Assembly: GCA_017541885.1 (NCBI GenBank) | Contig: JAFXYF010000004.1 | Location: 1 to 64,000 of the forward strand | Source of the DNA: Bacilli bacterium | Lineage (GTDB): Bacteria; Bacillota_I; Bacilli_A; RF39; UBA660 | Length of the DNA stretch: 64,000 nucleotides | Reading direction: 5' to 3' | Part shown: positions 4,014 through 62,584 of the stretch, piece by piece | Layout: every line of letters starts with the position of its first letter | How positions within the stretch are numbered: position 1 is the stretch's first letter | Made by a program: the position numbers and the translations under genes | Notes under the pieces: model-generated | The model's database searches: none | What the model saw: the letters and a program-made list of their open reading frames with translations, nothing else | Told to the model about the DNA's origin: nothing

Positions 4014-4466
4014 ATGGTTAAATATATTCGTGTGATACTTTTTAGTATCATAGCTGTTTTTGGTATTGCAATGAGCTTAGGATCTAGTTATGCATATTCA
4101 GATAAAGGTGTATACTATGATAATGTACGTTATAGTGATAATGTTACATTTTATGGTGTAGATGGATTAAACTTAGGTTTTGATGCTGCTTTAGCTGATT
4201 TAGGAGATTCTTATGAGGTTATCTTTGATGTAGTTAATGATAATGATGTTGATATGGTTATTACTGATACTACAGTTAAAGAAGATGATCCATATATTAC
4301 TTATGAATTAACTTACTTAGATGGAAAAAAAGTACAAGTTGGAGATGTTTTAGAGAAAAATAATACTAAAACATTAAAATATGTTGTTACTTATGTTAAT
4401 CCAGTAATGGTTGATAACTATCAAATTGATTCTAGTTTCAACATACAATACGATCAAAAAATATAG
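4014..4466 (+). CDS. Divergent TasA-like secreted protein
   Basis: A 150-residue protein starting at ATG 4014, five bases after GGAGGGG (4003-4009). The N-terminus MVKYIRVILFSIIAVFGIAM leads to GSSYAYSDKG, a signal peptide that lacks the GYxxLS hallmark of its neighbours. The body still shows the family block (ADLGDSYEVIFDVVNDNDVDM) and the later LTYLDGKKVQVGD, comparable to YSDGTAVSLND in the 3317 product. It is therefore a shortened, diverged paralogue, possibly a minor subunit or anchor for the other TasA-like proteins. It has its own promoter and terminator. Confidence 0.6.
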   Translation: MVKYIRVILFSIIAVFGIAMSLGSSYAYSDKGVYYDNVRYSDNVTFYGVDGLNLGFDAALADLGDSYEVIFDVVNDNDVDMVITDTTVKEDDPYITYELTYLDGKKVQVGDVLEKNNTKTLKYVVTYVNPVMVDNYQIDSSFNIQYDQKI

Positions 4467-4489
4467 AGAAGATTATCTTCTCTTTTTTT
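4465..4489 (+). terminator. Intrinsic terminator
   Basis: Stem AGAGAAGA / TCTTCTCT with loop TTA and seven T. It starts in the stop codon of the preceding gene and its last T is the T of the next promoter's TGn. Confidence 0.85.
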
Positions 4490-4510
4490 GTTATAATATC
4501 TTTAGGTGAT
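4489..4510 (+). promoter_or_regulatory. Extended -10 promoter with SD at predicted +1
   Basis: TGTTATAAT at 4489-4497, six bases (ATCTTT), then AGGTGAT at 4504-4510 and ATG at 4514. If initiation is six bases after the -10, the mRNA begins with the Shine-Dalgarno sequence and the leader is ten bases. Confidence 0.7.
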
Positions 4511-4513
4511 TTT

Positions 4514-5200
4514 ATGGTTAAAATAGGTATACCTTTAAAGTATCATCATTTAGATGATGGAAGATGTATTTTGTATTTAGGAGAAAGAACTAGAAGAACT
4601 ATTCAATTAGCTGGAGGATTTGTAATACCTATTGTACAAGTACAAGATGTTGATTACTATGATACTAAGTTTAATGAATATAAAGAATTAAGTGAATTAG
4701 AAAAGAAATCTATTGATAATTATTTAGATATGGTAGATGGTGTGTTATTTCCAGGAGGACATAAGATAACTCCTTTTGATGTATATCTACTTAGAAGATG
4801 TATTGAGAGAGATATTCCTACTTTAGGTATATGTTTAGGGATGCAACTAATGAGTTGTTATAATGAATATTTTGAAGTATATCGTAATGAATCAGATATT
4901 AATCATTATCAAGATAGTGATTTTGGTTTTGCACATAAAGTGTTAATAAAAAAAGATTCTACTTTATATAAGATATTAGGAAAAGAAGAATTAATGGTAA
5001 ATAGTTTTCATAATTATCATGTATCTATTGATAATCAATATATAGTTACTGCTAATTCAGAAGATGGATATATTGAAGGAATAGAACTTCCAAATAAAAA
5101 GTTTCATATGGGAATTCAATGGCATCCAGAGATAAGTTATGAGTTTGACGAAGACTCTAAAAAAATAATTAATTATTTTATAGAAGTATGTAAAAAATAA
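4514..5200 (+). CDS. Class-I glutamine amidotransferase-like peptidase (C26, PuuD-like)
   Basis: A 228-residue cytoplasmic hydrolase of the gamma-glutamyl hydrolase/PuuD group, which cleave gamma-glutamyl bonds. The nucleophile elbow is GICLGMQL (Cys), and the His-Glu pair is GIQWHPE near the C-terminus. VDGVLFPGGHKI is the usual loop before the active site. Length fits the family. The substrate cannot be read from sequence; gamma-glutamyl-GABA or a gamma-glutamyl peptide are candidates. It has a compact upstream promoter, and no terminator is seen before the next gene. Confidence 0.8.
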   Translation: MVKIGIPLKYHHLDDGRCILYLGERTRRTIQLAGGFVIPIVQVQDVDYYDTKFNEYKELSELEKKSIDNYLDMVDGVLFPGGHKITPFDVYLLRRCIERDIPTLGICLGMQLMSCYNEYFEVYRNESDINHYQDSDFGFAHKVLIKKDSTLYKILGKEELMVNSFHNYHVSIDNQYIVTANSEDGYIEGIELPNKKFHMGIQWHPEISYEFDEDSKKIINYFIEVCKK

Positions 5201-12204: not shown

Positions 12205-12210
12205 AAGCGT

Positions 12211-12428
12211 ATCGATGTTGATCGAGGAGTAGTAATAAAATGATGATGTATAGAGAGTCTATGGTAGGTGGAAATAGATCATATAGTTTTATGAATTCGT
12301 CTCGGGAGTTCTTATTAATAATAAGCGTTGTCTTGCGTTAAAAGATTTAAGTGTGTAGTAAATAACTATGAATTAAGGTGGTACCGCGGATTATCCGTCC
12401 TTAAATTTATAGTTATTTTTTTTAGGGG
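12211..12428 (+). promoter_or_regulatory. T-box riboswitch, Phe specifier (TTC)
   Basis: The conserved T-box core AAGGTGGTACCGCGG lies near 12374-12388. The stem I 3' side reads GAA-TTC-GTCTCGGGAG; TTC at 12296-12298 is the specifier codon for phenylalanine. The terminator pairs ATAACTAT and AATTAAGG on the 5' side with CCTTAAATT and ATAGTTAT on the 3' side, followed by eight or more T. Uncharged tRNA-Phe should stabilise the antiterminator and switch on the HAD-pheS-pheT operon. Confidence 0.93.
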
Positions 12429-17685: not shown

Positions 17686-17706
17686 TGATAAAATAAATTT
17701 GGTGAT
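17686..17706 (+). promoter_or_regulatory. Extended -10 promoter with SD at predicted +1
   Basis: TGATAAAAT at 17686-17694, six bases, then GGTGAT at 17701-17706, ahead of ATG 17711. Confidence 0.6.
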
Positions 17707-17710
17707 GGAC

Positions 17711-18349
17711 ATGTTGTTTACTTACAATAATAAAAGCTATGATGTAGTTATCGAAAAGAAGATGGGTAATCGTAATACTTATATTAGAGTAAAGAAAGAT
17801 TTAAAGATTCATGTTACTACTAATACATTTACTCCTAATTTTAGTATTGAAAGATTAATTAGAGATAACTATGAAAGAATATGTGACATGATTGATGTTC
17901 AAGAAGTTAAAGCAAGAAATAATAGTGGTTTTTATTATTTAGGTAAGCAATATAGAATTATTTATTCTGATCAAAAAGATATTTCTTTTGAGGAAGATTC
18001 AATATATGTTCCTCATAATTTTGATATAGATAAATGGTATTTAAAAAAGGCTAAAGAATTATTCTTGGAAAGATTAAATTATAATTATGATAAATATACA
18101 AGAAATATTCCTTATCCTAAACTTAGAATTCGTAAGATGACTAGTAGATGGGGAGTATGTAATACTAAGACACATGTAATTACATTAAATCTTGAATTAA
18201 TAAAAAGAGATATTTGTTATTTAGATTATGTAATTATTCATGAAATGGCACATTTAATATATGGAGATCATTCTAGAGCCTTTTGGAAATTAGTAGAGGA
18301 TAATATGCCTGAGTATAAAAAATATAGAGATGAAATGAAGGAGTTTTAA
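17711..18349 (+). CDS. YgjP-like zinc metallopeptidase domain protein (DUF45)
   Basis: A 212-residue cytoplasmic protein of the YgjP/DUF45 group, related to SprT/WLM zincins. Signatures are LRIRKMTSRWGVC (the RxxxSRWG motif), ITLNLELI and VIIHEMAHLIYGDHSRAFW, giving HExxH with His177, Glu178 and His181 and a third ligand in GDHSRAFW. Start ATG 17711 is five bases after GGTGA; ATG 17705 overlaps that site. Its stop overlaps the next start by one base, so it is co-translated with the TrmH-type methyltransferase. The substrate is unknown. Confidence 0.85.
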   Translation: MLFTYNNKSYDVVIEKKMGNRNTYIRVKKDLKIHVTTNTFTPNFSIERLIRDNYERICDMIDVQEVKARNNSGFYYLGKQYRIIYSDQKDISFEEDSIYVPHNFDIDKWYLKKAKELFLERLNYNYDKYTRNIPYPKLRIRKMTSRWGVCNTKTHVITLNLELIKRDICYLDYVIIHEMAHLIYGDHSRAFWKLVEDNMPEYKKYRDEMKEF

Positions 18350-25232: not shown

Positions 25233-25262
25233 AAAAGACAATTCTTAGAATTGTCTTTTTTT
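25233..25262 (+). terminator. Intrinsic terminator
   Basis: Stem GACAATTC / GAATTGTC with loop TTA and a T-run that abuts the next promoter. Confidence 0.88.
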
Positions 25263-25283
25263 GTTATAATAAATCTAGGTGAT
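25262..25283 (+). promoter_or_regulatory. Extended -10 promoter with SD at predicted +1
   Basis: TGTTATAAT at 25262-25270, six bases (AAATCT), AGGTGAT at 25277-25283, ATG 25287. Confidence 0.7.
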
Positions 25284-25286
25284 ATT

Positions 25287-25871
25287 ATGTCTAAAATATC
25301 TAATGTACTTTTAATGCTTCAATATTTAGAAAATGGTCGTAAATATAGTATTCCTGAACTTGCTGAAAAGTTAGAAGTAAGTCCTAGAATGATTAGAGTC
25401 TATAAAGAAGATTTAGAAAAAGCAGGTATATATATTGATACTATTAAAGGGCCTTATGGAGGATATGTATTAAATCAGAGTGTACGTATTCCAACTCGTA
25501 AATTTAGATTAGAAGATTATGAGTTTTTAAAAAACTTAAAAGTATCAGATAGTGATAGAGAACAACTTGATATACTAGCGGATAAAGTTCATGGGGTATA
25601 TTTTGATTCAAAAGATGAGAACTTCGAATTAAAAGATAATATCAGAGATGTTTATAATGCTTTAACTAGAGCAATTAAGAATAAACAAAAAGTAAAAATT
25701 AATTATTATTCATTTACTAAAGGTAATCAAGAAAGAGTAATACATCCGTATGACATGTTTTATTATAGTAGTGGTTGGGGTTGTGCTGCATATTGTGAAT
25801 TAAGAAAAGATTTAAGACATTTTGAATTAAAAAGAATTAATTCTTTTGAAGTTTTAGATGAAAAATATTAG
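25287..25871 (+). CDS. HTH/WYL-domain transcriptional regulator
   Basis: A 194-residue regulator. Residues about 5-60 form a DeoR/HTH_11-type winged helix (YSIPELAEKLEVSPRMIRVY, KEDLEKAGI, GPYGGY). Residues about 125-190 resemble a WYL sensor domain (KQKVKINYYSFTKGNQERVI, HPYDMFYY, FELKRINSFEVLD). The eponymous WYL triplet is not present (GWGCAAYCE lies in that region), so the ligand site has diverged. Start ATG 25287 is fixed by AGGTGAT. The next gene, a MacB-type ABC exporter, is a possible target but has its own upstream terminator. Confidence 0.8.
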   Translation: MSKISNVLLMLQYLENGRKYSIPELAEKLEVSPRMIRVYKEDLEKAGIYIDTIKGPYGGYVLNQSVRIPTRKFRLEDYEFLKNLKVSDSDREQLDILADKVHGVYFDSKDENFELKDNIRDVYNALTRAIKNKQKVKINYYSFTKGNQERVIHPYDMFYYSSGWGCAAYCELRKDLRHFELKRINSFEVLDEKY

Positions 25872-29220: not shown

Positions 29221-29241
29221 TGATAAAATTAATTATAGGAG
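29221..29241 (+). promoter_or_regulatory. Extended -10 promoter close to SD
   Basis: TGATAAAAT at 29221-29229, seven bases, AGGAG at 29237-29241, ATG 29251. Confidence 0.55.
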
Positions 29242-29250
29242 AGTGTTAAA

Positions 29251-29922
29251 ATGAAAAAGAAATATTATCTTTTTGAGATGAATATGAATTATTTAAATGT
29301 TGTATCTATTGTTTTATTCTTCTTATGTATTGTAGTTACAGCATTATTTTATAAAATAGGAATTATTCATAATTGGGATTATAATATGGGAATTATATTA
29401 CTATTAATGATTCCATATTTGTGTTTACATGAATTATTACATAGTTTAGCTTATGTACTTCATGGAGCAAAGTTTAAAAATGTTACTTATGGGGCACATT
29501 TAGAAAAAGGAATTCTTTGTTGTTTATGTAAACAAAATATTAGTAAGAGAAATATCTTAACTTCTTTATTATATCCATTTGTAATTATTGGAGTAATTAC
29601 TTATATTATTGGATTAATATTTGATTTACCTATATTAATTGCTTTATCTATTGTGAATATATCTGGAGCTGCCGGAGATTTAGTTATGTTTGCGGCGTTT
29701 GCAGGTCTTAAAGATTTTGAATATTCTGAATATGATAATCCTACAGCATTTGGTCTTTATTCTGAAAAAGATTTAAGTAAGAAGAAATTATTTGGACTTA
29801 ATTATATAGGTGTAGAAGATAAGTTAGAAATTAAAGACTTAAAAAAAGTTACAATTAGTAAAACAAGTATTATTTTATTTATTATAATTATTCTTGTTGG
29901 AATACTTTATACTTTTATTTAA
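29251..29922 (+). CDS. DUF3267-type membrane zincin
   Basis: A 223-residue integral membrane protein with about five spans. YLCLHELLHSLAYVLHG contains HExxH (HELLH), the putative zinc site of DUF3267 metalloproteases. GAKFKNVTYGAHLEKGILCC and the later NISGAAGDLVM are typical of that family. AGGAGAG precedes ATG 29251. Members are implied in membrane proteolysis; no substrate is known. The next gene follows after 55 bases. Confidence 0.8.
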   Translation: MKKKYYLFEMNMNYLNVVSIVLFFLCIVVTALFYKIGIIHNWDYNMGIILLLMIPYLCLHELLHSLAYVLHGAKFKNVTYGAHLEKGILCCLCKQNISKRNILTSLLYPFVIIGVITYIIGLIFDLPILIALSIVNISGAAGDLVMFAAFAGLKDFEYSEYDNPTAFGLYSEKDLSKKKLFGLNYIGVEDKLEIKDLKKVTISKTSIILFIIIILVGILYTFI

Positions 29923-30554: not shown

Positions 30555-31469
30555 ATGGAAAAAAATGGAAATTTAAATTTTTCAAAATTAGAAAAAAGAG
30601 TAAGAGAGGGATTTAATGATTCTGACTTAGAATTAATAAATAGTAAGTTAAAAAGTATTGATGGACCAACTTTAGTTTCTGGAGTAGGAGGATCAAGCGT
30701 AGTATCAGAGCTTGCTTCTAAAGTACTTAGAGAAAAGAATCATATTATTACTGAAAATGTAGAACCGAGAGATTTTATTTATAGGAATTTAGATGGATAC
30801 AAAAATGTATTATCTTGTAGTTATTCTGGTAATAATTATGGAGTAGAATTATCTTTTCTAAATAACTTAAAACATTATCTTCTTAGTAGTAAGAAAAATG
30901 ATAGAGAAGATATTTGTAATATTACTTATACTTGTAGTGATCCTGAAAAGAGTTTTATATCGATAGGGGCAACACTTGTTCCTTGTAGTATCTTAATGAA
31001 TTATTATTTAGATGGTAATATTGATTTATTACTTGAAAGTATTAAAGAAAAATCTTTTACTTTTGAACCTACTAGTAATATTTATGAAATATTTAGTGGA
31101 ATTGATACTAGTACAGCTTCTAAGTATTTAGAGTCTACTATGGTAGAAGCTGGTATTGGTATTCCAATAGTTCATGATAAATATTCTTATTGTCATGGAA
31201 GAAGTACAATGTGTAAGAATTATTCATCTACAGCAATCTACTATAATACTCATTCAGAGCTTGATAAACTTCTTTTAGAGGAGATTTTACCATATTATGA
31301 TAAATTAATCGTGATTGATGTAGAAAAGGGCTTATTAGGCGATTATAGGGCTTTAATTGAGAGTATGTATCTAACTAAATATTTAGCAGATAAACAAGCT
31401 AAAGATATTTCGGGAGTAGATTATAATCCAATAGTCAAAAAGCTTTATAAATATAATAGAGGAGTATGA
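30555..31469 (+). CDS. SIS-domain sugar isomerase-like protein
   Basis: A 304-residue cytoplasmic protein. LVSGVGGSSVVSELASKVL followed by NVEPRDFIYRNL and VLSCSYSGNNYGV is the first SIS motif (phosphosugar-binding loop). A second half includes AGIGIPIVHDKYSYCHGR and LTKYLADKQAKDISG near the C-terminus, like isomerase/deaminase SIS proteins (GlmS-type fold). The substrate is unknown; a phosphosugar is likely. Its ribosome site is locked in a hairpin. The stop TGA (31467-31469) forms part of the next promoter. Confidence 0.75.
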   Translation: MEKNGNLNFSKLEKRVREGFNDSDLELINSKLKSIDGPTLVSGVGGSSVVSELASKVLREKNHIITENVEPRDFIYRNLDGYKNVLSCSYSGNNYGVELSFLNNLKHYLLSSKKNDREDICNITYTCSDPEKSFISIGATLVPCSILMNYYLDGNIDLLLESIKEKSFTFEPTSNIYEIFSGIDTSTASKYLESTMVEAGIGIPIVHDKYSYCHGRSTMCKNYSSTAIYYNTHSELDKLLLEEILPYYDKLIVIDVEKGLLGDYRALIESMYLTKYLADKQAKDISGVDYNPIVKKLYKYNRGV

Positions 31470-31487
31470 TATAATTTCTATAGGAGG
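31467..31487 (+). promoter_or_regulatory. Extended -10 promoter using a stop codon, SD at predicted +1
   Basis: TGATATAAT at 31467-31475, of which TGA is the preceding stop codon; six bases; AGGAGG at 31482-31487; ATG 31495. Confidence 0.65.
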
Positions 31488-31494
31488 ATATATT

Positions 31495-31887
31495 ATGGAA
31501 GAAATATTAGAGTTTTTAAAGAAAGCAGGATGCTTTTATTTCGCAACAGCAGAAGGAGATCAACCTAGAGTTAGACCATTTGGAGTTGTTGAAATATACA
31601 ATAATAGATTATATTTTTTAACTGGAAAAGGTAAGAATGTTACTAAACAGTTACATGAAAATAATAAGATAGAGATATGTGCAACAATTGGAGAAGAATG
31701 GATTCGTTTAGAAGGCACTATTATGATGGATGATGAAAGAGACGCAAAGAAATATTTCTTAGATAAAAATCCACAACTTAGAGGAATGTATAGTGAAGAT
31801 GATCAAAATACACAACTTCTTTATTTAGAGCATGGTAAAGCAACAATCTCATCTTTTACTAAGCCACCTAAAGAAATTAATTTTTAA
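31495..31887 (+). CDS. Pyridoxamine 5'-phosphate oxidase-fold flavin protein
   Basis: A 130-residue split-barrel protein. MEEILEFLKKAGCFYFATAE, QPRVRPFGVVEIYNNRLYF, KGKNVTKQLHENNKIEICA and WIRLEGTI are the usual PNPOx-like strands, and the FMN-binding Lys/Arg positions appear preserved. Such small proteins act as flavin reductases or redox proteins; the substrate is unknown. AGGAGG lies seven bases before the ATG. Confidence 0.85.
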   Translation: MEEILEFLKKAGCFYFATAEGDQPRVRPFGVVEIYNNRLYFLTGKGKNVTKQLHENNKIEICATIGEEWIRLEGTIMMDDERDAKKYFLDKNPQLRGMYSEDDQNTQLLYLEHGKATISSFTKPPKEINF

Positions 31888-31912: not shown

Positions 31913-31951
31913 TTTTAAAAATATTTATAATGATATTAGGAGGGTAAGGTT

Positions 31952-32890
31952 ATGCCAAAGAAAAAAGAAGTAGAAGATACTGTTAATAAAAATGAAATTA
32001 AAAAGGAACTTATGGCCTATGTGGATACTGCATTAGAAGAGAGACTTGAAAAGGCGATTGATAGTAAAGTTAAGAAAGAAGTTATTGGTGAAGTAGAGAA
32101 GAATTATAAGAGAATTATAAGAGAGAAGAATCATAAAATATTTTGGAAGAATATATGGTTACTTATATTTATAATTATTATTTGTGCTCTTGTTTATCTA
32201 ATTTATAATACTCATTATTATGATTCATATGTTCATAAGATATTTCCTGTAAAAGATAAGGAAGAAGTAGTAGAGAAGAAAGATAATAATAAAGAAGTAG
32301 AAAAAGATAATGATACTGATAAAATATTAGATGTAGTAGAAGAACCTAATTTAGATGATTTAAAAGAGAAATATGCACCTTATATTGATTCATATATTTT
32401 ATCTGAAAAATCTATTTATATTGATTCTTTCTATAATGGAGAACTTACTACTGAAGTTAAGAATTATATTAGTTTGAATTCAATGAATTTTGATAAATTA
32501 CAAGTAGAAGAAGATTATAATTTAATTGATGGAACATTACTAAATAAAGTATGTTTAGAATTATTTAATAATTGTAAGAAAGAGTCATTTGATTATAATG
32601 GTAATAATGCAAGATACTTTAATAAATTAGATTCTTATGTAACTAATAGTATATTAGAGAGAGAAACTAGCTTAATTCAAAGAGATATTTTAGATATTAA
32701 AGAAGAGAAAGATACTGTTACTATTACTACTATTGAAGGAGTAGTTGCAGGAGACCAATTATATAAAGTAAGTCCTAATGAGTATGTAGGTGAATACTAT
32801 GGAGAAGGATTTATGAATTATCAAGATTCTTTAAATAAGATGATTTATACTTTTAAAAATAAGAAATTAGTTAGTATAGAAAAAGGATAA
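31952..32890 (+). CDS. Membrane-anchored extracytoplasmic protein, unknown function
   Basis: A 312-residue protein. The first 65 residues are a charged cytoplasmic helix (KKELMAYVDTALEERLEKAI); residues about 68-88 form one span (IWLLIFIIIICALVYLIY); a Lys/Glu/Asp linker follows, and the outside domain (about 130-312) contains ESFDYNGNNARYFNKLDSYV and YQDSLNKMIYTFKNKKLVS. Its general layout resembles the protein at 16837. GGAGGG precedes ATG. No family recognised; a terminator overlaps its stop. Confidence 0.65.
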   Translation: MPKKKEVEDTVNKNEIKKELMAYVDTALEERLEKAIDSKVKKEVIGEVEKNYKRIIREKNHKIFWKNIWLLIFIIIICALVYLIYNTHYYDSYVHKIFPVKDKEEVVEKKDNNKEVEKDNDTDKILDVVEEPNLDDLKEKYAPYIDSYILSEKSIYIDSFYNGELTTEVKNYISLNSMNFDKLQVEEDYNLIDGTLLNKVCLELFNNCKKESFDYNGNNARYFNKLDSYVTNSILERETSLIQRDILDIKEEKDTVTITTIEGVVAGDQLYKVSPNEYVGEYYGEGFMNYQDSLNKMIYTFKNKKLVSIEKG

Positions 32891-32913: not shown

Positions 32914-32934
32914 TGATATAATATTTTTAGGTGG
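32914..32934 (+). promoter_or_regulatory. Extended -10 promoter with SD at predicted +1
   Basis: TGATATAAT at 32914-32922, six bases, AGGTGG at 32929-32934, ATG 32939. Stop to start distance is 48 bases including the terminator. Confidence 0.7.
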
Positions 32935-32938
32935 TTAT

Positions 32939-34243
32939 ATGAATTTATTTGATTTAGATAATTCAACTGAATTTAAACCTTTAGCAGATAAAATGAGACC
33001 TATGAGTTTAGATGACTTTGTAGGTCAAGAAGATGTTGTTGGGAAAGATTCATCTATTCGTAAAATGATTGAATCTGATCAAATTTCTTCTATGATCTTT
33101 TGGGGACCTCCGGGAGTTGGTAAAACAACACTCGCAAAGATAATTGCTGAAAAAACTAAATCTAGTTTTCATGAATTATCTGCGGTTACTTCAGGAGTAA
33201 AAGAAGTAAAAGAAATATTTGAGATTGCTAAATACAATAAGAGTATGGGTAAAAAAACTATACTATTTGTAGATGAAATACATAGATTTAATAAAGCTCA
33301 ACAAGATGCATTTTTACCTTATGTAGAAAATGGTACTATTGTACTTATTGGGGCAACTACTGAGAATCCTTCTTTTGAAGTAAACTCCGCTTTACTTTCG
33401 AGAACAAAAGTATATGTACTTCATTCTTTAACAAATGAAAATATTTTAGAAGTATTACATAGAGCAATGTCTAAGGTATATCCAAATATTACTTTAGATG
33501 ATGACTCTTTTAATATAATTGCGAATATTAGTAATGGAGATGCTAGAAGTGCACTTAATACTTTAGAAAATGTTATTAATACAATTACTAGTAAAGGACA
33601 TAAGAAAAAGATTACTAAGAAAGATTTAGAGACTGTATTACATAGTAAAACATTTTTATATGATAAAAATGGAGAAGAACATTATAATTTAATATCTGCT
33701 CTTCATAAATCTATGAGAAATAGTGATCCTGATGCAGCACTTTATTATTTAGCAAGAATGTTAGAAGCTGGAGAAGATCCAAAATATATTGCGAGAAGAA
33801 TTGTTAGATTTGCATCTGAAGATATTGGTATGGCTAATACTAATGCTTTGGTACAAGCAGTATCTGCATATCAAGCAGTAACATTTATAGGAGTACCTGA
33901 ATGTAATGTTAATCTTGCGCAAGCAGTAGTTTATTTAAGTGTATCTCCTAAATCTAATTCGTTAGAAGTAGGTTATATGAAAGCAGCAGAAGATGCGATT
34001 AAAACAGCTAAAGAAAAAGTACCATTACATCTTAGAAATGCTGAGACTAAGTTAGATAAAGATTTAGGTTATGGAAAAGGTTATATGTATGCTCATGACT
34101 ATGGAGGACTTACTCCAATGGAGTGTTTACCTGAAGTATTAAAGGGTAGAAAGTACTATGAACCTACTGATCATGGAAATGAAAAGAATGTACAAGCTAT
34201 ATTAAAAGATATAGAAAAAAGAAAGAAAAATATGAAAATATAG
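32939..34243 (+). CDS. rarA: Replication-associated recombination protein A (RarA/MgsA)
   Basis: AAA+ ATPase acting at stalled replication forks. PLADKMRPMSLDDFVGQEDV is the family start; Walker A is GPPGVGKTTLAKIIA; Walker B is ILFVDEIHRFNKAQQDAFLP; sensor 1 is GATTENPSFEVNSALLSRT. The C-terminal tetramerisation domain includes LIKSM-type HKSMRNSDPDAALYYLARML, EDIGMA and LGYGKGYMYAHDYGG. Length 434 fits. AGGTGG precedes ATG 32939. Confidence 0.96.
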   Translation: MNLFDLDNSTEFKPLADKMRPMSLDDFVGQEDVVGKDSSIRKMIESDQISSMIFWGPPGVGKTTLAKIIAEKTKSSFHELSAVTSGVKEVKEIFEIAKYNKSMGKKTILFVDEIHRFNKAQQDAFLPYVENGTIVLIGATTENPSFEVNSALLSRTKVYVLHSLTNENILEVLHRAMSKVYPNITLDDDSFNIIANISNGDARSALNTLENVINTITSKGHKKKITKKDLETVLHSKTFLYDKNGEEHYNLISALHKSMRNSDPDAALYYLARMLEAGEDPKYIARRIVRFASEDIGMANTNALVQAVSAYQAVTFIGVPECNVNLAQAVVYLSVSPKSNSLEVGYMKAAEDAIKTAKEKVPLHLRNAETKLDKDLGYGKGYMYAHDYGGLTPMECLPEVLKGRKYYEPTDHGNEKNVQAILKDIEKRKKNMKI

Positions 34244-39671: not shown

Positions 39672-39688
39672 TATAATTATAATAGGAG
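39672..39688 (+). promoter_or_regulatory. -10 with SD at predicted +1, first repeat-protein gene
   Basis: TATAAT at 39672-39677, six bases (TATAAT again), AGGAG at 39684-39688, ATG 39695. Confidence 0.6.
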
Positions 39689-39694
39689 AATAAT

Positions 39695-42600
39695 ATGAAA
39701 CATACTAGAAGAAAGCGTAGATTTGATAATAGAAAATATAGAATCTTTGCAATTCTAGTTTTTGTGTTGTGTTTAACTGTTGGATATTCACTTCTTAGCA
39801 CGGGGTTAGGTATTTCAGGATCAATTAGCTTAGCAAGATATAAAGAGCCAATTATTAGAACTTCAAGTGATACTGATACAACTGCATTCAAAAATGATGC
39901 TTATAGAGAAAAGATTAAGATTATTAATTTAGATGATGAGATTAATCCTCCAAATAATGTTGTTGCATCTTGGGATATAGGAGAAGCAGGCAACGGAAAT
40001 GTAATGGCTTATGTTACAAGAAATCATGATGATAATACAATGTATGATTTATATATACAAGGTGATGGACATTTATATGCAAATGAGGATAGCAGTTATT
40101 TATTTTACAAATTAAAAGGTGTAGATCAAATAAATGGAATTGATAATTTAGATATATCAAGAACTACAAATATGTCCTATCTTTTTTATCAAACTGGATA
40201 CAATAGTATGGTATTCACTTTAGATTTAGGAAACAATTTTGATACAAGCAATGTAACTAATATGAAAAAAACATTTGAGGATGCAGGTCATGAAAGTCCA
40301 ATATTTACTTTAAATTTGGGTAGCAAGTTTGATACTAGTAATGTTACAACTATGGAATCAATGTTTAATGCTGCTGGTCGAAATAGCACTGTATTTACTT
40401 TAGATTTGGGAGATAAATTTGATACAAGTAAAGTTACTAATATGAAAACTTTGTTTTACTATGCTGGCTATAGTAGTCCAAGTTTTACCTTGGATTTAGG
40501 AGATAAATTTGATACAAGTAATGTAACAAACATGATTGGTTTATTTTATAATACTGGCTATAGTAATACAAATTTTACTTTAGATTTAGGAGATAAATTT
40601 GATACAAGTTCGGCCACAAGTATGTATAGTATGTTTAGAAATACAGGATATAAAAGTACAGTTTTTACCTTAGATCTAGGCAACAAATTTTACACAAGCA
40701 ATGTAACAGATATGAGTTATATGTTTACTAATACAGGTTATAGCAATACTACTTTTAGCTTAAATTTAGGTGACAAATTTGATACAAGCAATGTAACAAA
40801 TATGAATTATATGTTCTATAGTACTGGTTATAGTAGTACAGTATTTACTTTAGATTTAGGTGCTAGCTTTGATACAAGCAATGTAACAAATATGAGTTCT
40901 ATGTTTTATTGCACAGGTTATAGTAGTCCAGTTTTTACTTTAGATTTAGGTAGTAAATTTGATACAAGTAATGTAACAAATTTTAGTTTTATGTTTAGAA
41001 GTACTGGTCATGATAGTCTATCTTTTACACTAGACTTAGGAAATAAATTTGATACAAGTAGTGCAACAAATATGCAGGCTATGTTTAATGATATTGGTTA
41101 TAGTAGCACAGTGTTTACTTTGGATTTGGGCAATAATTTTGATACAAGTAATGTAGAAAATATGAGTGGCATGTTTTCTAAAACTGGTTATGGTAGTACA
41201 ATATTTGCGCTTGATTTAGGCGATAAATTCGATACAAGTAAAGTAACGAATATGAACAGCATGTTTAATGAAACAGGCAATAATAGTACAAATTTCATCT
41301 TGGATTTAAGAAATAGTTTTGACACAGGTAGTGTAACAACTATGGAGTGGATGTTTGCACATGTTGGATATAATAGTACGGCAATAACCTTAGATTTAGG
41401 AGATAAATTTGATACAAGCAATGTTACAACTATGAAAGCGATGTTTAAGGAAGCGTGTCATAGTAGTCAAGTGTTTATTTTAGATTTAGAAGATAATTTT
41501 GACACAAGTAAAGTTACTGATATGTCATATATGTTTCATGAAACTGGTTATAATAGTCCAGTGTTTACTTTGAATTTAGGTAATAATTTTGATACAAGTA
41601 ATGTAACTAACATGTACTGTATGTTTGAAGATGCTGGATATAGTAGTACAAGTATTACTTTAGATTTGGGAGATAAATTTGATACAGGCAATGTTACAAC
41701 AATGTTTAATATGTTTAATAGCACAGGCTATAGTAGCCCAATCTTTACTTTAAATCTTGGAACTAATTTTGATACAAGTAATGTAACAAATATGGATGGA
41801 GTTTTTTATTGTACTGGATTCAGTAGTACTATATTTACTTTGGATTTAGGGGATAAATTTGATACAAGCAATGTAACTGATATGAGTTACATGTTTAGAA
41901 GTACAGGACGTAGTAGTCTTTCTTTCGAGTTGAATTTAGGGGATAAATTTGATACAAGCAATGTAACATCAATGATTAGTTTGTTTGATGAAACAGGCTA
42001 CAGTAGTACAGTTTTTACTTTAGATTTGGGAGATAAATTTGATACAAGTAATGTAACAAATATGAAAACTGTTTTTTTAAGGACTGGTTATAGTAGTCCA
42101 GTCTTTACCTTAGACTTAGGAAATAAATTTGATACAAGTAAAGCAGAAACTATGGAATCAATGTTTAGTGGCACAGGATATAATAGTCAAGTATTTACCT
42201 TGGACTTAGGAAGTAAATTTGATACAAGTAATGTAATAAATATGCATGGTTTATTCTATTGTACTGGATTTAATAGTCCAGTGTTTACCTTAGATTTAGG
42301 TTCTGAATTTGATACAAGTAAAGTAACTGATATGAGTCTTATGTTTAGAAGTACTGGTCATAGTAATACCTCTTTCACATTAGATTTGGGTTCTAAATTT
42401 GATACAAGCAATGTAACAAATATGTTAGGATTGTTTAATGATACAGGTTATAGTAGTACTGTATTTACCTTAGATTTAGGAGATAAATTTGATACAAGTA
42501 AAGTTACAGATATGAAATCTATGTTTTGCAAAACGGGGTATAATAGTACTGGATTTACATTAGATTTAGGAAATAAATTTGATACAAGTAATGTAACAAA

Positions 42601-42820
42601 TATGGAAACAATGTTTGATGGTGTTGGTTATGTAAATGATAATATGGTTATTGATGTGTCAACTTTTGATTTTAGCAATTTATCATCATATACTAATATA
42701 TTCAAAGTTTGGAAAACAACACAAAAAATCTATGTAAAAGATGCTACTGATCAAGCATGGGTTATTGCTAATGGAGGAAGTAGTAACTTAACTACAAGTA
42801 ATGTTCTTATTAAGACATAG
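39695..42820 (+). CDS. Giant DUF285/BspA-like repeat surface protein 1
   Basis: A 1041-residue secreted protein. The basic start MKHTRRKRRFDNRKYRIF and hydrophobic stretch end in TVGYSLLSTGLGISGS, the SipW-type signal. Residues about 50-180 form an N-terminal region with VVASWDIGEAGNGNVMAYVT and YIQGDGHLYANED. Residues 182-961 are 26 units of exactly 30 residues with consensus FDTSNVTNM-xxMF-xxTGYSST-VFTLDLGDK, an elongated solenoid related to DUF285/Listeria-Mycoplasma surface repeats. A C-terminal cap ends IYVKDATDQAWVIANGG and NVLIKT. No LPxTG, lipobox or C-terminal span is visible. Role as adhesin is inferred. Confidence 0.85.
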   Translation: MKHTRRKRRFDNRKYRIFAILVFVLCLTVGYSLLSTGLGISGSISLARYKEPIIRTSSDTDTTAFKNDAYREKIKIINLDDEINPPNNVVASWDIGEAGNGNVMAYVTRNHDDNTMYDLYIQGDGHLYANEDSSYLFYKLKGVDQINGIDNLDISRTTNMSYLFYQTGYNSMVFTLDLGNNFDTSNVTNMKKTFEDAGHESPIFTLNLGSKFDTSNVTTMESMFNAAGRNSTVFTLDLGDKFDTSKVTNMKTLFYYAGYSSPSFTLDLGDKFDTSNVTNMIGLFYNTGYSNTNFTLDLGDKFDTSSATSMYSMFRNTGYKSTVFTLDLGNKFYTSNVTDMSYMFTNTGYSNTTFSLNLGDKFDTSNVTNMNYMFYSTGYSSTVFTLDLGASFDTSNVTNMSSMFYCTGYSSPVFTLDLGSKFDTSNVTNFSFMFRSTGHDSLSFTLDLGNKFDTSSATNMQAMFNDIGYSSTVFTLDLGNNFDTSNVENMSGMFSKTGYGSTIFALDLGDKFDTSKVTNMNSMFNETGNNSTNFILDLRNSFDTGSVTTMEWMFAHVGYNSTAITLDLGDKFDTSNVTTMKAMFKEACHSSQVFILDLEDNFDTSKVTDMSYMFHETGYNSPVFTLNLGNNFDTSNVTNMYCMFEDAGYSSTSITLDLGDKFDTGNVTTMFNMFNSTGYSSPIFTLNLGTNFDTSNVTNMDGVFYCTGFSSTIFTLDLGDKFDTSNVTDMSYMFRSTGRSSLSFELNLGDKFDTSNVTSMISLFDETGYSSTVFTLDLGDKFDTSNVTNMKTVFLRTGYSSPVFTLDLGNKFDTSKAETMESMFSGTGYNSQVFTLDLGSKFDTSNVINMHGLFYCTGFNSPVFTLDLGSEFDTSKVTDMSLMFRSTGHSNTSFTLDLGSKFDTSNVTNMLGLFNDTGYSSTVFTLDLGDKFDTSKVTDMKSMFCKTGYNSTGFTLDLGNKFDTSNVTNMETMFDGVGYVNDNMVIDVSTFDFSNLSSYTNIFKVWKTTQKIYVKDATDQAWVIANGGSSNLTTSNVLIKT
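40238..42577 (+). repeat. 26 tandem 90-bp units in repeat protein 1
   Basis: Each unit starts at TTT-GAT-ACA (FDT) and is exactly 90 bases, without one indel over 2340 bases. Units differ by many substitutions, mostly in the middle third. Confidence 0.9.
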
Positions 42821-42846
42821 AAAAAGAACCTTTTTGGTTCTTTTTT
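42821..42846 (+). terminator. Intrinsic terminator after repeat protein 1
   Basis: Stem AAAGAACC / GGTTCTTT and a T-run. The same AGAACC/GGTTCT stem ends all three repeat-protein genes. Confidence 0.87.
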
Positions 42847-43009
42847 GTTAATAATTGTAAAGTAATAGCTTAATTATCTCTCATTCATTGAGAAATATAT
42901 CTAGAAAATATATAATTATAATAGGAGAATAATATGAAACATACTAGAAGAAAGAGAAGATTTGATAATAGAAAATATAGAATCTTTGCAATTCTAGTTT
43001 TTGTGTTGT
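42846..43009 (+). repeat. Duplicated leader and signal-peptide block, copy 1
   Basis: These 164 bases match 45272-45435 with only three differences. They cover the upstream region, -10, ribosome site and the signal-peptide codons. A hairpin-capable TCTCA / TGAGA lies upstream of the -10. Confidence 0.9.
42911..42927 (+). promoter_or_regulatory. -10 with SD at predicted +1, second repeat-protein gene
   Basis: TATAAT at 42911-42916, six bases, AGGAG at 42923-42927, ATG 42934. Confidence 0.6.
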
Positions 43010-45249
43010 GTTTAACTGTTGGGTATTCTCTTTTAAGTACAGGATTAGGTATAAGTGGAAACTTAGTATTAAAAAAATATAAGGAGCCTATTATTCGTAC
43101 TGTTTCATCCGAGTATGATACGACTGCTTTTCGAAGCTCTAGTTATATTTACTACATTAAAAATATTACATTGGATAATGAAATCAATCCTCCTGATAAT
43201 GTGGTCGCATCATGGGATTATAGTGTTGCTCGTAATGGAAATGTAATGGCTTATTTAACTAGAAATTCAAATGATAATACCAAGTATGATTTATATATTC
43301 AAGGTGATGGACATTTATATGCAAATGAAAATAGCTCTTATTTGTTTTCTAAACTTTCTGGTGTTGACAATATTTATGGATTAGATAAACTTGATACTTC
43401 AAGGGTAAAAAATATGAGTTATATGTTTAAAGGATTTGGATCATCTGGAACTGTTGCATTAGATTTGGGTGATAATTTTGATACAAGCAATGTTACAAAT
43501 ATGTCTTATATGTTCAATGAAGCAGGATCTCATAATAGATCTTTTACATTGGATTTAGGATCAAAATTTGATACAAGCAAAGTAACAAATATGAAATATA
43601 TGTTTAAGAATACAGGAATTTATTCTCAAGCTTTTACTATTAATCTAGGAGACAAATTTGATACAAGTAATGTAACTGATATGAGTTATATGTTTTATGA
43701 GCTTGGTGATGGTAGTTCTTTCTTAACGTTGGATTTAGGTGACAAATTTGATACTTCAAATGTAACAAATATGGAATATATGTTTCCATCTGCCGGTTAT
43801 AGTTGTACAATTTTTACTCTAAATTTAGGAAATAAATTTGATACAAGTAATGTTACCAATATGGATCACATGTTTGATGTCACAGGACTTAAAAGTACTG
43901 TAATGACATTAGATTTGGGAGACAAATTTGATACTTCAAATGTAACTAATATGGATAGTATGTTTAATGCAGTTGGAAGGGATAGTACAGTTTTTACATT
44001 AGATTTAGGAGATAAATTTGATACTAGTAAAGTTACAAATATGAATATAATGTTCAGTTCTGTTGGTAAAAACAGTTCTTCATTTACTTTGGATTTAGGT
44101 GATAAGTTTGATACTTCAAATGTTACAAACATGAACAGTATGTTTTCTAATACTGGATATAAGAATTCTAATTTTACATTAGATTTAGGCGACAAATTTG
44201 ATACAAGCAAAGTAACAAATATGAATGGAATGTTTTACAGTACGGGCTATAATAGTACAGTATTTACCTTAGATTTAGGAGACAAATTTGATACAAGAAA
44301 TGTAACAACTATGAGTGACATGTTTCACAGTACGGGCTATAATAGTACAGTATTTACCTTAGATTTAGGAGATAAGTTTGATACAAGTAATGTTACTTAT
44401 ATGATAGATATGTTTAACTATGCAGGAAGAAGTAGTATGGTAATGACCTTAGATTTAGGAGATAATTTTGATACTAGTGAAGTAATAAGTACGTGTAGAA
44501 TGTTTGAATCAACTGGATATAGTAGTCCAGTGTTTACTCTAGACTTAGGGAGTAAGTTTGATACAAGCAATGTCGCAAATATGGACTCTATGTTTAGTAG
44601 AATTGGATATAATAATACCTCTTTCACTTTAGATTTAGGCGATAAATTTGATACATCTTCTGTAACAGATATGAGTGGTATGTTTAATAAAACTGGGTAT
44701 TTGAGTACTATATTTACTTTAGATTTAGGAGATAAGTTTGATACAAGTAGTGTATTATATACAAGATCAATGTTTAGTGAAACGGGCTATTCAAGTCCAG
44801 TGTTTACACTAGATTTAGGAAACAAATTTGATACAAGTAGTGTAAAAGGTATGGGTCGTATGTTTTATTTTGCAGGTTATGGTAATCCAAATTTTACTTT
44901 AGATTTGGGAGGCAAATTTGATACTTCAAATGTACAAGATATGGATTATATGTTTTATAATGCTGGTTGTAATAATCCAAATTTTGTGTTGGACTTAGGC
45001 GATAAATTTGATACAGGTAATGTTTTTACAATGGATTCAATGTTTAGTTCTACTGGATATGCTAATGATAATTTTGTGCTTGATATTTCTTTGTTTGATT
45101 TTAGTAGTGTAACGGATTATCAACATATGTTTTATATGTGGAAAACAACACAGAAGATATATGTAAAAGATAGTAGTGATCAAGCATGGATTATTAATAA
45201 CAGTGGAAACTCTAATTTAACAACTTCAAATGTACTTATAAAAACATAA
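42934..45249 (+). CDS. Giant DUF285/BspA-like repeat surface protein 2
   Basis: A 771-residue paralogue of the protein at 39695. The signal region is almost identical (KYRIFAILVFVLCLTVGYSL, LSTGLGISG), followed by the same N-terminal region (NVVASWDYSVARNGNVMAYL). Residues 182-691 are 17 exact 30-residue units, then a partial unit and the shared C-terminal cap (KTTQKIYVKDSSDQAWII). A few units have lost the T-N-M turn (FDTSEVISTCRMF, FDTSSVLYTRSMF). It has its own promoter and terminator, so the three paralogues are separate transcription units. Surface role inferred; anchoring not visible. Confidence 0.85.
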   Translation: MKHTRRKRRFDNRKYRIFAILVFVLCLTVGYSLLSTGLGISGNLVLKKYKEPIIRTVSSEYDTTAFRSSSYIYYIKNITLDNEINPPDNVVASWDYSVARNGNVMAYLTRNSNDNTKYDLYIQGDGHLYANENSSYLFSKLSGVDNIYGLDKLDTSRVKNMSYMFKGFGSSGTVALDLGDNFDTSNVTNMSYMFNEAGSHNRSFTLDLGSKFDTSKVTNMKYMFKNTGIYSQAFTINLGDKFDTSNVTDMSYMFYELGDGSSFLTLDLGDKFDTSNVTNMEYMFPSAGYSCTIFTLNLGNKFDTSNVTNMDHMFDVTGLKSTVMTLDLGDKFDTSNVTNMDSMFNAVGRDSTVFTLDLGDKFDTSKVTNMNIMFSSVGKNSSSFTLDLGDKFDTSNVTNMNSMFSNTGYKNSNFTLDLGDKFDTSKVTNMNGMFYSTGYNSTVFTLDLGDKFDTRNVTTMSDMFHSTGYNSTVFTLDLGDKFDTSNVTYMIDMFNYAGRSSMVMTLDLGDNFDTSEVISTCRMFESTGYSSPVFTLDLGSKFDTSNVANMDSMFSRIGYNNTSFTLDLGDKFDTSSVTDMSGMFNKTGYLSTIFTLDLGDKFDTSSVLYTRSMFSETGYSSPVFTLDLGNKFDTSSVKGMGRMFYFAGYGNPNFTLDLGGKFDTSNVQDMDYMFYNAGCNNPNFVLDLGDKFDTGNVFTMDSMFSSTGYANDNFVLDISLFDFSSVTDYQHMFYMWKTTQKIYVKDSSDQAWIINNSGNSNLTTSNVLIKT
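43477..45006 (+). repeat. 17 tandem 90-bp units in repeat protein 2
   Basis: Period exactly 90 bases with no indels. Two neighbouring units share an identical stretch of about 45 bases (from 44238 and from 44328), a sign of recent unit duplication or conversion. Confidence 0.9.
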
Positions 45250-45272
45250 AAGAACCAATTGGTTCTTTTTTT
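45248..45272 (+). terminator. Intrinsic terminator after repeat protein 2
   Basis: Stem AAGAACC / GGTTCTT with loop AATT and a T-run. Confidence 0.87.
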
Positions 45273-45435
45273 GTTAATAATTGTAAAGTAATAGCTTAAT
45301 TATCTCTCATTCATTGAGAAATATATCTAGAAAATATATAATTATAATAGGAGAATAATATGAAATATACTAGAAGAAAGCGTAGATTTGATAATAGAAA
45401 ATATAGAATCTTTGCAATTCTAGTTTTTGTGTTGT
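45272..45435 (+). repeat. Duplicated leader and signal-peptide block, copy 2
   Basis: Partner of 42846-43009, three differences in 164 bases. Confidence 0.9.
45337..45353 (+). promoter_or_regulatory. -10 with SD at predicted +1, third repeat-protein gene
   Basis: TATAAT at 45337-45342, six bases, AGGAG at 45349-45353, ATG 45360. Confidence 0.6.
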
Positions 45436-48137
45436 CATTAACTGTTGGATATTCTCTACTTAGTACAGGACTTGGAATTACGGGTAATATTACTCTTTCA
45501 AAATATAAGGAACCAATAATTAGAACTACATCTTCATCAGATACAACAGCATTTAGAAATAGTACATATCGTGATAAAATAAAGACTATTACCTTGGATG
45601 ATGAAATAAATGCACCTGATAATGTAGTTGCAAGTTGGGATATTGGTGTAGCACAGAATGGAAATGTAATAGCTTATATTACAACTAACCAAGATGATAA
45701 TACAAAGTATGATTTGTATATACAAGGCGATGGGCATTTATATGCTAATGAGAATAGCTCATATTTATTCTACAATTTTTTATATGTGGATAATATAAAT
45801 GGAATAGAAAAATTAGATATTTCAAAAGTAAAGAATATGAAAAGAATGTTTTCACTACTTGGATACAGTAGTCCAATATTTACGTTAGATTTAGGTAACA
45901 ACTTTGATACTAGTAATGTAATTAATATGGCTGATATGTTTACAGGTACAGGGAGAAATAGTACAGTTTTCACTTTAAACTTAGGCAACAACTTTGATAC
46001 AAGCAATGTAATTGATATGAGCGATTCAGAAATGAACAATAATGGTGGAACATATGGAGGAATATTTTGTGATACCGGTTATAAAAGCACAGTCTTCACA
46101 CTAGATTTGGGAGACAAATTTGATACAAGTAATGTTACAGACATGACTAATCTTTTTCATGGAGCTGGTTATAGTAGTACAGTATTCACTTTGGATTTAG
46201 GAAATAAATTTGACACAAGTAATGTAACAAATATGTTTGGAATGTTTGATTCAGCTGGATATAAAAGCACAGTTTTCACATTAGATTTGGGAGACAAATT
46301 TGATACAAGCAATGTTATAGACATGGGAAGTATGTTTGAAAATGTTGGATATTACAATCAAAATTTCACATTAGATTTAGGGGATAAATTTGATACTGGA
46401 AATGTAACAAATATGAGAAATATGTTTAAAGGTGTTGGTGCTTCAAGTAGTATTTTTACTTTTTCTTTGGGAGACAAATTTGATACAAGCAATGTTATAA
46501 ATATGGGCTATATGTTTAGTCATGCTGGAACAAATAGTACAATAATAGAATTAAGGTTAGGAAATAAATTTGACACAAGTAATGTCACTTATATGGATTA
46601 TATGTTTGAATGGATTGGAGTAAACAATCCAAATTTTAGTTTAATCTTAAATAATAGATTTGATACAAGTAATGTAACTAATATGGAAGGAATGTTTAAT
46701 AATACAAGTGGTCAAAGCGGGCAATTCACATTAGATTTAGGAGACAAATTTGATACAGGTAACGTAACTAATATGAAAGGTATGTTTAATTGTGTTGGAA
46801 GGAGCAATACAGATTTTGTTTTAGATTTAGGTAATGATTTTGATACAAGTAATGTTAAGACAATGGAATTTATGTTTGCAAGAGCTGGATATGCTAGTAC
46901 CAATTTCACAATACAATTTGGAAATAAATTTGACACAAGCAGTGTTACAAACATGGGAGGAATGTTTTCGCTTGCTGGATATAGTAGTAGTGTTTTTTGT
47001 CTAGATTTAGATTTTAATACCAGTAATGTAACTAATATGGCTGCGATGTTTTATGATACGGGTTATAATAATAATTTATTTACATTAAATTTGGGGCAAA
47101 ATTTTGATACAAGTAAAGTGGAAAATATGGCTGCAATGTTTTATGATACTGGATATAGTAGCACTATCTTTACATTGAATCTAGGCGATAAGTTTGATAC
47201 AAGTAATGTAACAGAAATGTCATCAAATAATTTAAAAATTGGATTAATAGGATCGAGTGGTGCTGATATGGGTTTAGGAATGTTCTGGAAAACAGGATAT
47301 AGTAGCCAGGTTTTTACATTAGATTTAGGAGATAAATTTGATACAAGTAAAGTAACAAATATGGGTGCAATGTTTTATAGTACAGGTCATAATAGCACGA
47401 TTTTCACTTTGGATTTAGGAGATAAATTTGATACAAGTAGTGTTACACAAATGCAATGGATGTTTATGGACACTGGTTATTCAAATTCCAATTTCATATT
47501 AAATTTAGGAGATAAATTTGATACAAGTAATGTTATAAATATGCATAATATGTTCTATAGAACTGGATATTCTAGCAGCTTATTTACCTTAGATTTAGGA
47601 GATAAATTCGATACAAGTAAAGTAACAAACATGAGATCTATGTTTTATAAGACAGGATATAGTAGCCAGGTTTTTACTTTGGATTTAGGAAATAAATTTG
47701 ATACAAGTAATGTAACAAATATGCAAGCAATGTTTTATAGTACAGGTCATAATAGCACGATTTTCACTTTGGATTTAGGGAACAAATTTGATACAGGAAA
47801 TGTTACAATAATGACATCATATGCTCCAGTAGAAGGAATGTTTAGTAATTGTGGATATAGTAATCCAAATTTTACATTGAATTTGGGTGATAAATTCTAT
47901 ATTAATAATGTAACAAATATTGAAACTCTCTTTTCTAATGTAGGACATAGTAATCCTAATTTTGAAATTGATATATCATCGTTCGACTTTAGTAATATTA
48001 CTACTTATACTGATGTATTTAATGGTTGGCAGTCTTCACAAAAAATATATGTTAAAGATGCGACTGCTCAGGCATGGATTATTAATAATAGTGGTAATGC
48101 TAATTTGACTACTGCTAATGTACTTATTAAGACATAA
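45360..48137 (+). CDS. Giant DUF285/BspA-like repeat surface protein 3
   Basis: A 925-residue third paralogue with the same signal (LTVGYSLLSTGLGITGN), N-terminal region and C-terminal cap (IYVKDATAQAWIINNSGNAN). It has about 21 repeat units. Unlike its neighbours it carries extra residues, always between the T-x-M turn and the MF pair: 12 in one unit (MSDSEMNNNGGTYGGIFC), 18 in another (MSSNNLKIGLIGSSGADMG) and 6 in a third (MTSYAPVEGMF). One unit (SVFCLDLDFNTSN) is two residues short. Loops of this kind may form binding surfaces on the solenoid. Secretion by SipW and an adhesive role are inferred. Confidence 0.85.
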   Translation: MKYTRRKRRFDNRKYRIFAILVFVLSLTVGYSLLSTGLGITGNITLSKYKEPIIRTTSSSDTTAFRNSTYRDKIKTITLDDEINAPDNVVASWDIGVAQNGNVIAYITTNQDDNTKYDLYIQGDGHLYANENSSYLFYNFLYVDNINGIEKLDISKVKNMKRMFSLLGYSSPIFTLDLGNNFDTSNVINMADMFTGTGRNSTVFTLNLGNNFDTSNVIDMSDSEMNNNGGTYGGIFCDTGYKSTVFTLDLGDKFDTSNVTDMTNLFHGAGYSSTVFTLDLGNKFDTSNVTNMFGMFDSAGYKSTVFTLDLGDKFDTSNVIDMGSMFENVGYYNQNFTLDLGDKFDTGNVTNMRNMFKGVGASSSIFTFSLGDKFDTSNVINMGYMFSHAGTNSTIIELRLGNKFDTSNVTYMDYMFEWIGVNNPNFSLILNNRFDTSNVTNMEGMFNNTSGQSGQFTLDLGDKFDTGNVTNMKGMFNCVGRSNTDFVLDLGNDFDTSNVKTMEFMFARAGYASTNFTIQFGNKFDTSSVTNMGGMFSLAGYSSSVFCLDLDFNTSNVTNMAAMFYDTGYNNNLFTLNLGQNFDTSKVENMAAMFYDTGYSSTIFTLNLGDKFDTSNVTEMSSNNLKIGLIGSSGADMGLGMFWKTGYSSQVFTLDLGDKFDTSKVTNMGAMFYSTGHNSTIFTLDLGDKFDTSSVTQMQWMFMDTGYSNSNFILNLGDKFDTSNVINMHNMFYRTGYSSSLFTLDLGDKFDTSKVTNMRSMFYKTGYSSQVFTLDLGNKFDTSNVTNMQAMFYSTGHNSTIFTLDLGNKFDTGNVTIMTSYAPVEGMFSNCGYSNPNFTLNLGDKFYINNVTNIETLFSNVGHSNPNFEIDISSFDFSNITTYTDVFNGWQSSQKIYVKDATAQAWIINNSGNANLTTANVLIKT
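45903..47918 (+). repeat. About 21 tandem 90-bp-type units in repeat protein 3
   Basis: Mostly 90-base units with in-frame insertions of 36, 54 and 18 bases and one deletion of 6. Bases 47290-47440 and 47650-47800, four units apart, are nearly identical. Confidence 0.85.
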
Positions 48138-50151: not shown

Positions 50152-50248
50152 ACCTTATCAAGAGTGATTGAGAGAACAGGCTCTGTGAAATCCAGCAACC
50201 CATTTCGGGTGGGTGCTAAATCCTGCGGTATTAACCGAAAGATGAGTT
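50152..50248 (+). promoter_or_regulatory. SAM-I (S-box) riboswitch aptamer
   Basis: CTTATCAAGAG at the 5' side, GTGAAATCCAGCAACC in the core, GGTGCTAAATCC and finally GAAAGATGAG are the S-box landmarks; CTTATC pairs with GATGAG (one G-U) as P1. It lies before metK, the SAM synthetase gene, and TATAAT at 50121-50126 is its likely -10. SAM binding should favour the downstream terminator. Confidence 0.95.
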
Positions 50249-52367: not shown

Positions 52368-52385
52368 TATAATTATATTGGTGAT
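52368..52385 (+). promoter_or_regulatory. -10 with SD at predicted +1
   Basis: TATAAT at 52368-52373 directly after the terminator, six bases, GGTGAT at 52380-52385, ATG 52389. Stop to start is 47 bases. Confidence 0.6.
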
Positions 52386-52388
52386 AAT

Positions 52389-58068: not shown

Positions 58069-58073
58069 AAGTT

Positions 58074-62581: not shown

Positions 62582-62584
62582 ACT

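Follow-up and report, generated by a model that had tools for sequence, protein, structure and literature searches.

In an uncultured gut-type Bacilli bacterium, about a third of the recognisable promoters, which are ordinary extended -10 promoters of sigma-A type, lie so near to their genes that the RNA most probably begins with the first Shine-Dalgarno (SD) base, with the SD cut at the transcription start (+1) and its register compensating. In short leaders the SD moves to the 3' register GGTGAT, and its predicted pairing with 16S rRNA is kept at about -9 kcal/mol. This compensation by register is the newer part of the finding.

Genome sample and definitions

The whole stretch of DNA analysed here (the window) was 64 kb with 27.9% G+C, from contig 9 of a draft genome of 1.45 Mb. 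Comparison of PheS showed that the closest named relatives were uncultured Bacilli, including Candidatus Faecimonas and Candidatus Onthousia. The genome scan covered 864 kb (40 stretches plus the window), about 60% of the genome, and gave 825 genes; 326 had an assigned promoter, and 255 of these had an SD of at least 5 bases. The gap is the number of bases between the -10 box and the 5' end of the SD match. Gene starts were predicted from the sequence with a bonus for an SD. For the permutation control, SD positions were shuffled among the genes of the 864 kb. Relatives were compared in 149 genomes of the class; the sample drawn as "phylum" contained this same class only.

Short-leader sites in the window

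All short-leader sites listed here were on the forward strand. The gene at 4514 (4514-5200) encoded a protein of the class-I glutamine amidotransferase/peptidase C26 family and had a short leader. Its promoter-to-start segment (4489-4516) consisted of TG-T-TATAAT (4489-4497), the spacer ATCTTT (4498-4503), the SD AGGTGAT (4504-4510) and ATG at 4514, with a predicted +1 at 4504 and a leader of 10 nt. The same gap of 6 was found at 17686-17713 before the YgjP-like metallopeptidase gene 17711 (17711-18349; TGATAAAAT-AAATTT-GGTGAT-GGAC-ATG), at 25262-25289 before the WYL-domain regulator gene 25287 (TGTTATAAT-AAATCT-AGGTGAT-ATT-ATG), at 31467-31497 before the PNPOx-like gene 31495 (TGATATAAT-TTCTAT-AGGAGG-ATATATT-ATG) and at 32914-32941 before the RarA-like AAA ATPase gene 32939 (TGATATAAT-ATTTTT-AGGTGG-TTAT-ATG). 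It was also present at gene 52389 (52368-52391; TATAAT-TATATT-GGTGAT-AAT-ATG), which had a minimal leader of 9 nt, at gene 58074 (58048-58076; TGATATATT-AAAAAT-AGGAGG) and at gene 62585 (62561-62587; TGCTATAAT-GGGTAT-GGTGAT-ACT-ATG). The DUF3267 gene 29251 (29221-29253; TGATAAAAT-TAATTAT-AGGAG) had a gap of 7.

Three further sites belonged to DUF285 paralogues. The first, gene 39695 (39672-39697), had TATAAT-TATAAT-AGGAG with a gap of 6, and the second and third, genes 42934 (42911-42936) and 45360 (45337-45362), carried duplicates of this leader with the same gap and are not independent. The three leaders were nearly identical, and those of 42934 and 45360 were identical over 50 nt. The region 39695-48137 is occupied by these three large tandem surface-type paralogues with copied promoter-leader segments, and more DUF285 copies were seen elsewhere in the genome (L002, L012, L106, L107 and L110).

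The earlier note on this DNA had named twelve start codons with this arrangement, and all twelve were found, with a gap of 6 at eleven and 7 at 29251. The TGn extension, which that note calls usual, was present at eight of the twelve. The sites exist as listed, but the three DUF285 copies reduce them to about ten independent cases, and the short leaders were borne out with a range of 9-13 nt rather than 10-13 nt. One additional site, absent from that note, was located at gene 31952 (31926-31954; TATAAT-GATATT-AGGAGG, gap 6; TATAATGATATTAGGAGG).

In the window, 35 genes had both an assigned -10 and an upstream space of 30 bases or more; ten of these had gap 6 and two had gap 7, and the others mostly had gaps of at least 10. 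No common function was seen among the short-leader genes of the window, which belonged to unrelated families. The window also contained exceptions with long leaders. One was a T-box at 12209-12405, upstream of a gene that lies before pheST, and the other a SAM riboswitch at 50152-50248.

The six-base gap compared with chance

Eight copies of the pattern TATAAT-N6-AGGNG were present in the window, whereas dinucleotide shuffles yielded 0.26 ± 0.48 and never more than 2. The looser pattern TANNATNNNNNNRGGNG occurred 15 times against 4.1 in shuffles, so the strict form carries the signal. When TATAAT-to-AGG[AT]G pairs were counted in 464 kb with no gene models, gap 6 gave 23 pairs, gap 5 gave 6, gap 7 gave 10 and gaps 0-4 gave 1-5.

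The 255 SD genes of the 864 kb were distributed as 57 at gap 6, 22 at gap 7, 13 at gap 5 and three below 5. Permuted SD positions gave 16.4 ± 3.9 genes at gap 6 and 34.8 below 5. The earlier note had proposed such a genome scan, and the sharp peak at six bases is present genome-wide. Gaps of 5-7 together made up 36% of the genes, which is the commonest class yet a minority, and about 64% of the promoters did not have the geometry. The arrangement at these sites is genuine and non-random.

Promoter type and predicted transcription start

The promoters, judged by their motifs, are of the sigma-A extended -10 type, with TGn directly before a TATAAT-like hexamer. The TG extension was present at 62-75% of the assigned promoters in every leader class, and the -35 position had a weak TTG with a spacer of 17.

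In leaders of at least 18 nt, the seventh base after the -10 was a purine in 71% (99/139), compared with 43% (60/139) at the sixth (p = 3.5e-6), and T dropped from 49% to 18% at the seventh base. Since no SD lies at the seventh base in long-leader genes, this purine onset probably marks +1 independently of the SD. A gap of 6 would then place +1 on the first SD base, which the earlier note had predicted and which is likely for this species from the long-leader promoters. In a 5'-RACE study of Mesoplasma florum, transcription starts 6-7 bases from the -10 (PMC7745072), agreeing with the position predicted here. In about a third of the recognisable promoters, the RNA is therefore predicted, and likely, to begin on the first SD base.

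Leader length

Distances between the -10 and the start codon had a hard edge at 15 and were evenly spread up to about 26, with no peak. The predicted leader length accordingly had a floor at 9 nt and was flat from 9 to about 20 nt, and for 33 of the 326 promoters the predicted leader was 9-10 nt long. A first sample had small bumps at 17, 21 and 26 that looked like periodicity, but they were gone with more data.

Leaderless mRNA, in which no more than about 5 nt precede the start codon, was not indicated in this sample, as -10 to start distances below 15 were nearly absent. Three GGTGAT genes with an apparent TATAAT gap of 0 or 1 (distances 9-10) were rejected as cases, for on reading an upstream -10 with gap 6 fitted each of them. 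Two other genes, G000:C1:35255 (L002) and G000:C12:25289 (L013), lacked an SD, had a TCTACCAA string in common and carried TATAAT at 10-12 bases from the downstream ATGGGGGT/TTGGGGGT; they had no Rfam match and are candidate leaderless genes or mis-called starts.

In a cut-off model, each short leader was swapped for a 3' leader segment of the same length, drawn at random from the long-leader genes; the gene's own promoter was retained and the SD match was relocated. Gap 6 then held 46 ± 4 genes, or 47 when the donors were operon genes, compared with the 57 observed. The six-base peak is thus mostly a boundary effect, because the SD cannot extend above +1. Two departures from the model were left over: gap 6 had more genes than it predicts (57 against 46 ± 4), and gap 8 had fewer (8 against about 20). 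An SD placed exactly at +1 may therefore be favoured to some further extent.

SD register in short leaders

The share of GGTGAT among SDs changed with the -10 to start distance: 88% at 13-15 (leaders of at most 9 nt), 59% at 16 and 43% at 17, with 73% for all distances up to 16. The share was 9-10% in long leaders and 9% in operon-internal genes. The SD register was correlated with the -10 to start distance (Spearman -0.40, p = 2e-11), and the aligned spacing of the SD to the start codon stayed near 7 in all leader classes. The consensus SD of Bacilli is given as AAAGGAGGU (PMC10783764), so GGTGAT is not the norm of the class.

If long-leader SDs were cut to a 9-nt leader, only 23% of them would retain 5 bases. 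The predicted pairing with GGAUCACCUCCUUUCU was -8.7 kcal/mol for leaders of 9 and 10 nt and -9.2 kcal/mol for 11 nt, while long-leader SDs cut to 9, 10 and 11 nt gave -4.1, -5.2 and -7.0 kcal/mol (p = 3e-8 for the 9-nt contrast). Mean pairing was -8.7 kcal/mol or better throughout leaders of 9-13 nt. The 16S tail for these energies came from two genomes of the class (GGATCACCTCCTTTCT end) outside the window's genus; a search by pattern did not find the 16S 3' end in 27 genomes of that genus (this one and 26 congeners, nine of high quality), which may reflect either its loss in assembly or a tail of unusual sequence. The 16S complementarity at a fixed aligned spacing points to SD-led initiation in these genes.

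These observations make the following mechanism likely. General leader shortening, linked to close packing of genes, would have set the architecture rather than coupling, and leaders could become as short as 9 nt but no shorter, with TGnTATAAT-N6-GGTGAT-N3-ATG as the minimal unit. The SD of a short leader would be cut off at +1, because nothing upstream of +1 is transcribed, and genes would thus pile up at gap six. The lost GGAGG part would be replaced by the 3' register, in which GGUGAU may pair with AUCACC of the 16S rRNA with unchanged spacing to the start codon. The ribosome would still initiate by SD pairing, at an SD on the extreme 5' end of the mRNA.

Packing of genes and promoters

A T-run stood directly above the promoter in 45% of genes with a -10 to start distance of 15-17, against 15% at 26-45. 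At 4514, 25287 and 52389 the T-run was part of a hairpin that fits the terminator of the upstream gene. The hairpin above 4514 (4465-4489, forward strand) had -8.5 kcal/mol and z -2.8, and its T-tract continues into the TGn of the promoter. The segment 4464-4516 thus holds the upstream stop codon, a terminator-like hairpin, the T-tract, the extended -10, the SD and the start codon within about 50 bases, and 25287 and 52389 are similar. Leader length was shorter with shorter intergenic length (rho 0.36), and the space above the -10 had a weak relation with leader length (rho 0.14). This packing pattern fits general compaction, without proving it.

Occurrence in relatives

The trait recurs across many families of the class. 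In the 149 class genomes, TATAAT-N6-GGTGAT-N2-5-ATG had 857 matches, compared with 169 per gap at gaps 8-16, and reversed-pattern controls were nearly zero. The gap-6 ratio was 6.8 for the family of the window; most families that had enough matches gave 4-11, but f8 gave 2.4 and f11 gave 1.3. Analysed stretch by stretch, the window's family and a congener both had the gap-6 peak and the register shift, which were also seen elsewhere with smaller numbers.

For the YgjP-like gene 17711, 17 species with 57% to 75% protein identity had the -10, variable spacer bases and then GGTG. The gap was 6 in 16 of the 17 and 7 in one; for four of the 16 the gap was assigned by visual inspection, since the script chose another hexamer or SD. 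Several of these orthologues had GGTGGT in place of GGTGAT, and some had a TTG start. The geometry of gene 4514 was kept in some relatives and absent from others. In orthologues of congener G016, six of nine short-gap genes remained at 5-6, a weak result from only 18 informative pairs.

Multi-domain ribosomal protein S1 was not found at E <= 1e-20 in any of the 18 genomes of the window's family (f1), and families f13 and f19 likewise had none at this threshold, unlike most other families of the class. Of the 149 class genomes, 80 did have it, and some of these belong to families whose gap-6 peak is strong. Loss of S1 as the cause was rejected because there was no clean association: S1-like proteins occurred in f9, f10 and f14, which had an equally strong gap-6 peak. 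S1 loss may permit leaders that have no upstream sequence, though it is not required.

Alternative explanations

Coupled initiation, which the earlier note offered as a possible reason for the constant spacing, is unlikely as the main cause. On this reading, an SD at +1 emerges from the polymerase ahead of all other RNA; the 30S subunit could load on it at once, and this benefit would fix the six-base spacing. The sharpness of the peak, the modest excess beyond the cut-off model and the kept spacing in 16 of the 17 orthologues of 17711 agree with it. Against it stand a leader length spread evenly between 9 and about 20 nt with no peak of its own, the absence of the geometry from about 64% of promoters, its occurrence in unrelated gene families of the window, and a peak that mostly follows from cutting the SD at +1. 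The data do not support the view that such selection must underlie the constant spacing. The small excess makes a direct benefit of coupling neither needed nor excluded, and we infer that leader shortening was the main driver. Less probable again, as the main cause, is selection at transcription initiation: the RNA would begin with the A or G of the SD, preceded by T at -1, and the SD would be drawn to +1 as the source of a good initiating base. In short leaders T at -1 did rise to 67% and A+G at +1 to 82%, and every gap-6 YgjP orthologue has T preceding GG. A purine is easily had without an SD, as long-leader promoters reach 71% at this position, and neither the register shift nor the kept pairing energy is accounted for. 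This effect and leader shortening are not mutually exclusive.

It is very improbable that the arrangement is an artefact of AT-rich sequence, copied leaders or circular calling of gene starts, with the true start sites elsewhere. TATAAT-like strings are indeed frequent at 28% GC, and duplicates make up three of the twelve sites. Against this stand the excess over shuffles in the window, the near-zero reversed-pattern controls across the 149 genomes and a peak that is visible without gene models. Genome G031 of family f8, with an equal GC content (28.1%), had no gap-6 gene in 140 kb, which rules out AT content as the cause, and two f11 genomes had median -10 to start distances of 33-34. AT-richness alone therefore does not yield the trait. 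Leader shortening with a compensating register is the explanation that we prefer.

Comparison with known systems and significance

These genes belong to a known kind, the SD-led mRNAs, and the variant here is the leader of minimum length with a compensating SD register. SD-led leaders are typically 25-35 nt in E. coli (PMC3415461) and mostly 15-35 nt in Streptococcus pyogenes (PMC6431027). These bacteria share the sigma-70/sigma-A promoter logic and SD-antiSD initiation, but they have a leader segment upstream of the SD, which is missing here in about a third of promoters.

The predicted leaders of about 9-15 nt with a GGTG-type SD resemble those of Thermococcales. Thermococcus onnurineus and T. 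kodakarensis (PMC5316973) also have very short leaders (median 11-12 nt), SDs of GGTG/GGDGRD type, a pyrimidine at -1 and a purine at +1. They differ in having an archaeal TATA/BRE promoter and archaeal initiation factors, whereas here a bacterial TGnTATAAT is combined with a register mix that depends on leader length. Mollicutes, a related class, are similar in AT-rich genomes, the TAWAAT -10 and the start-site position. In Mycoplasma gallisepticum, the 5' UTR mode is near 15 nt, the TG extension is rare and the 16S tail is given as UUACCUCC (PMC4245973), and Mesoplasma florum has leaders of 58 nt on average (PMC7745072); the accessible parts of these two papers describe no SDs starting at +1 and no register shift. 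In leaderless genes next to a -10 in Deinococcus-Thermus (PMC12340547) and others (PMC3160421), the -10 lies close to the ORF at a constant distance and likewise sets the start site and the leader, but these mRNAs have no SD, whereas here an SD of at least 5 bases is fully inside the leader of 9-13 nt. Our literature search, with most subscription journals outside its coverage, found no account of bacteria in which the SD starts at +1 and its register varies with leader length.

A stronger form of the finding would be that in many uncultured Bacilli the sigma-A promoter and the ribosome binding site are fused as TGnTATAAT-N6-GGTGAT-N3-ATG, kept by selection for 30S loading on a 5'-terminal SD as it leaves the polymerase, with the anti-SD register set for each gene by its leader length; we regard this as a speculative and unlikely proposal. 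The preferred reading, leader shortening with a compensating register, would give a concrete minimum of 9 nt for an SD-led bacterial leader, and the part of the 16S tail that a gene pairs with would depend on the position of its transcription start. These bacteria would also allow a test of whether a ribosome can do without any mRNA upstream of the SD. As a practical rule, promoters, start sites and start codons might be predicted jointly in genomes of uncultured Bacilli that have no RNA data.
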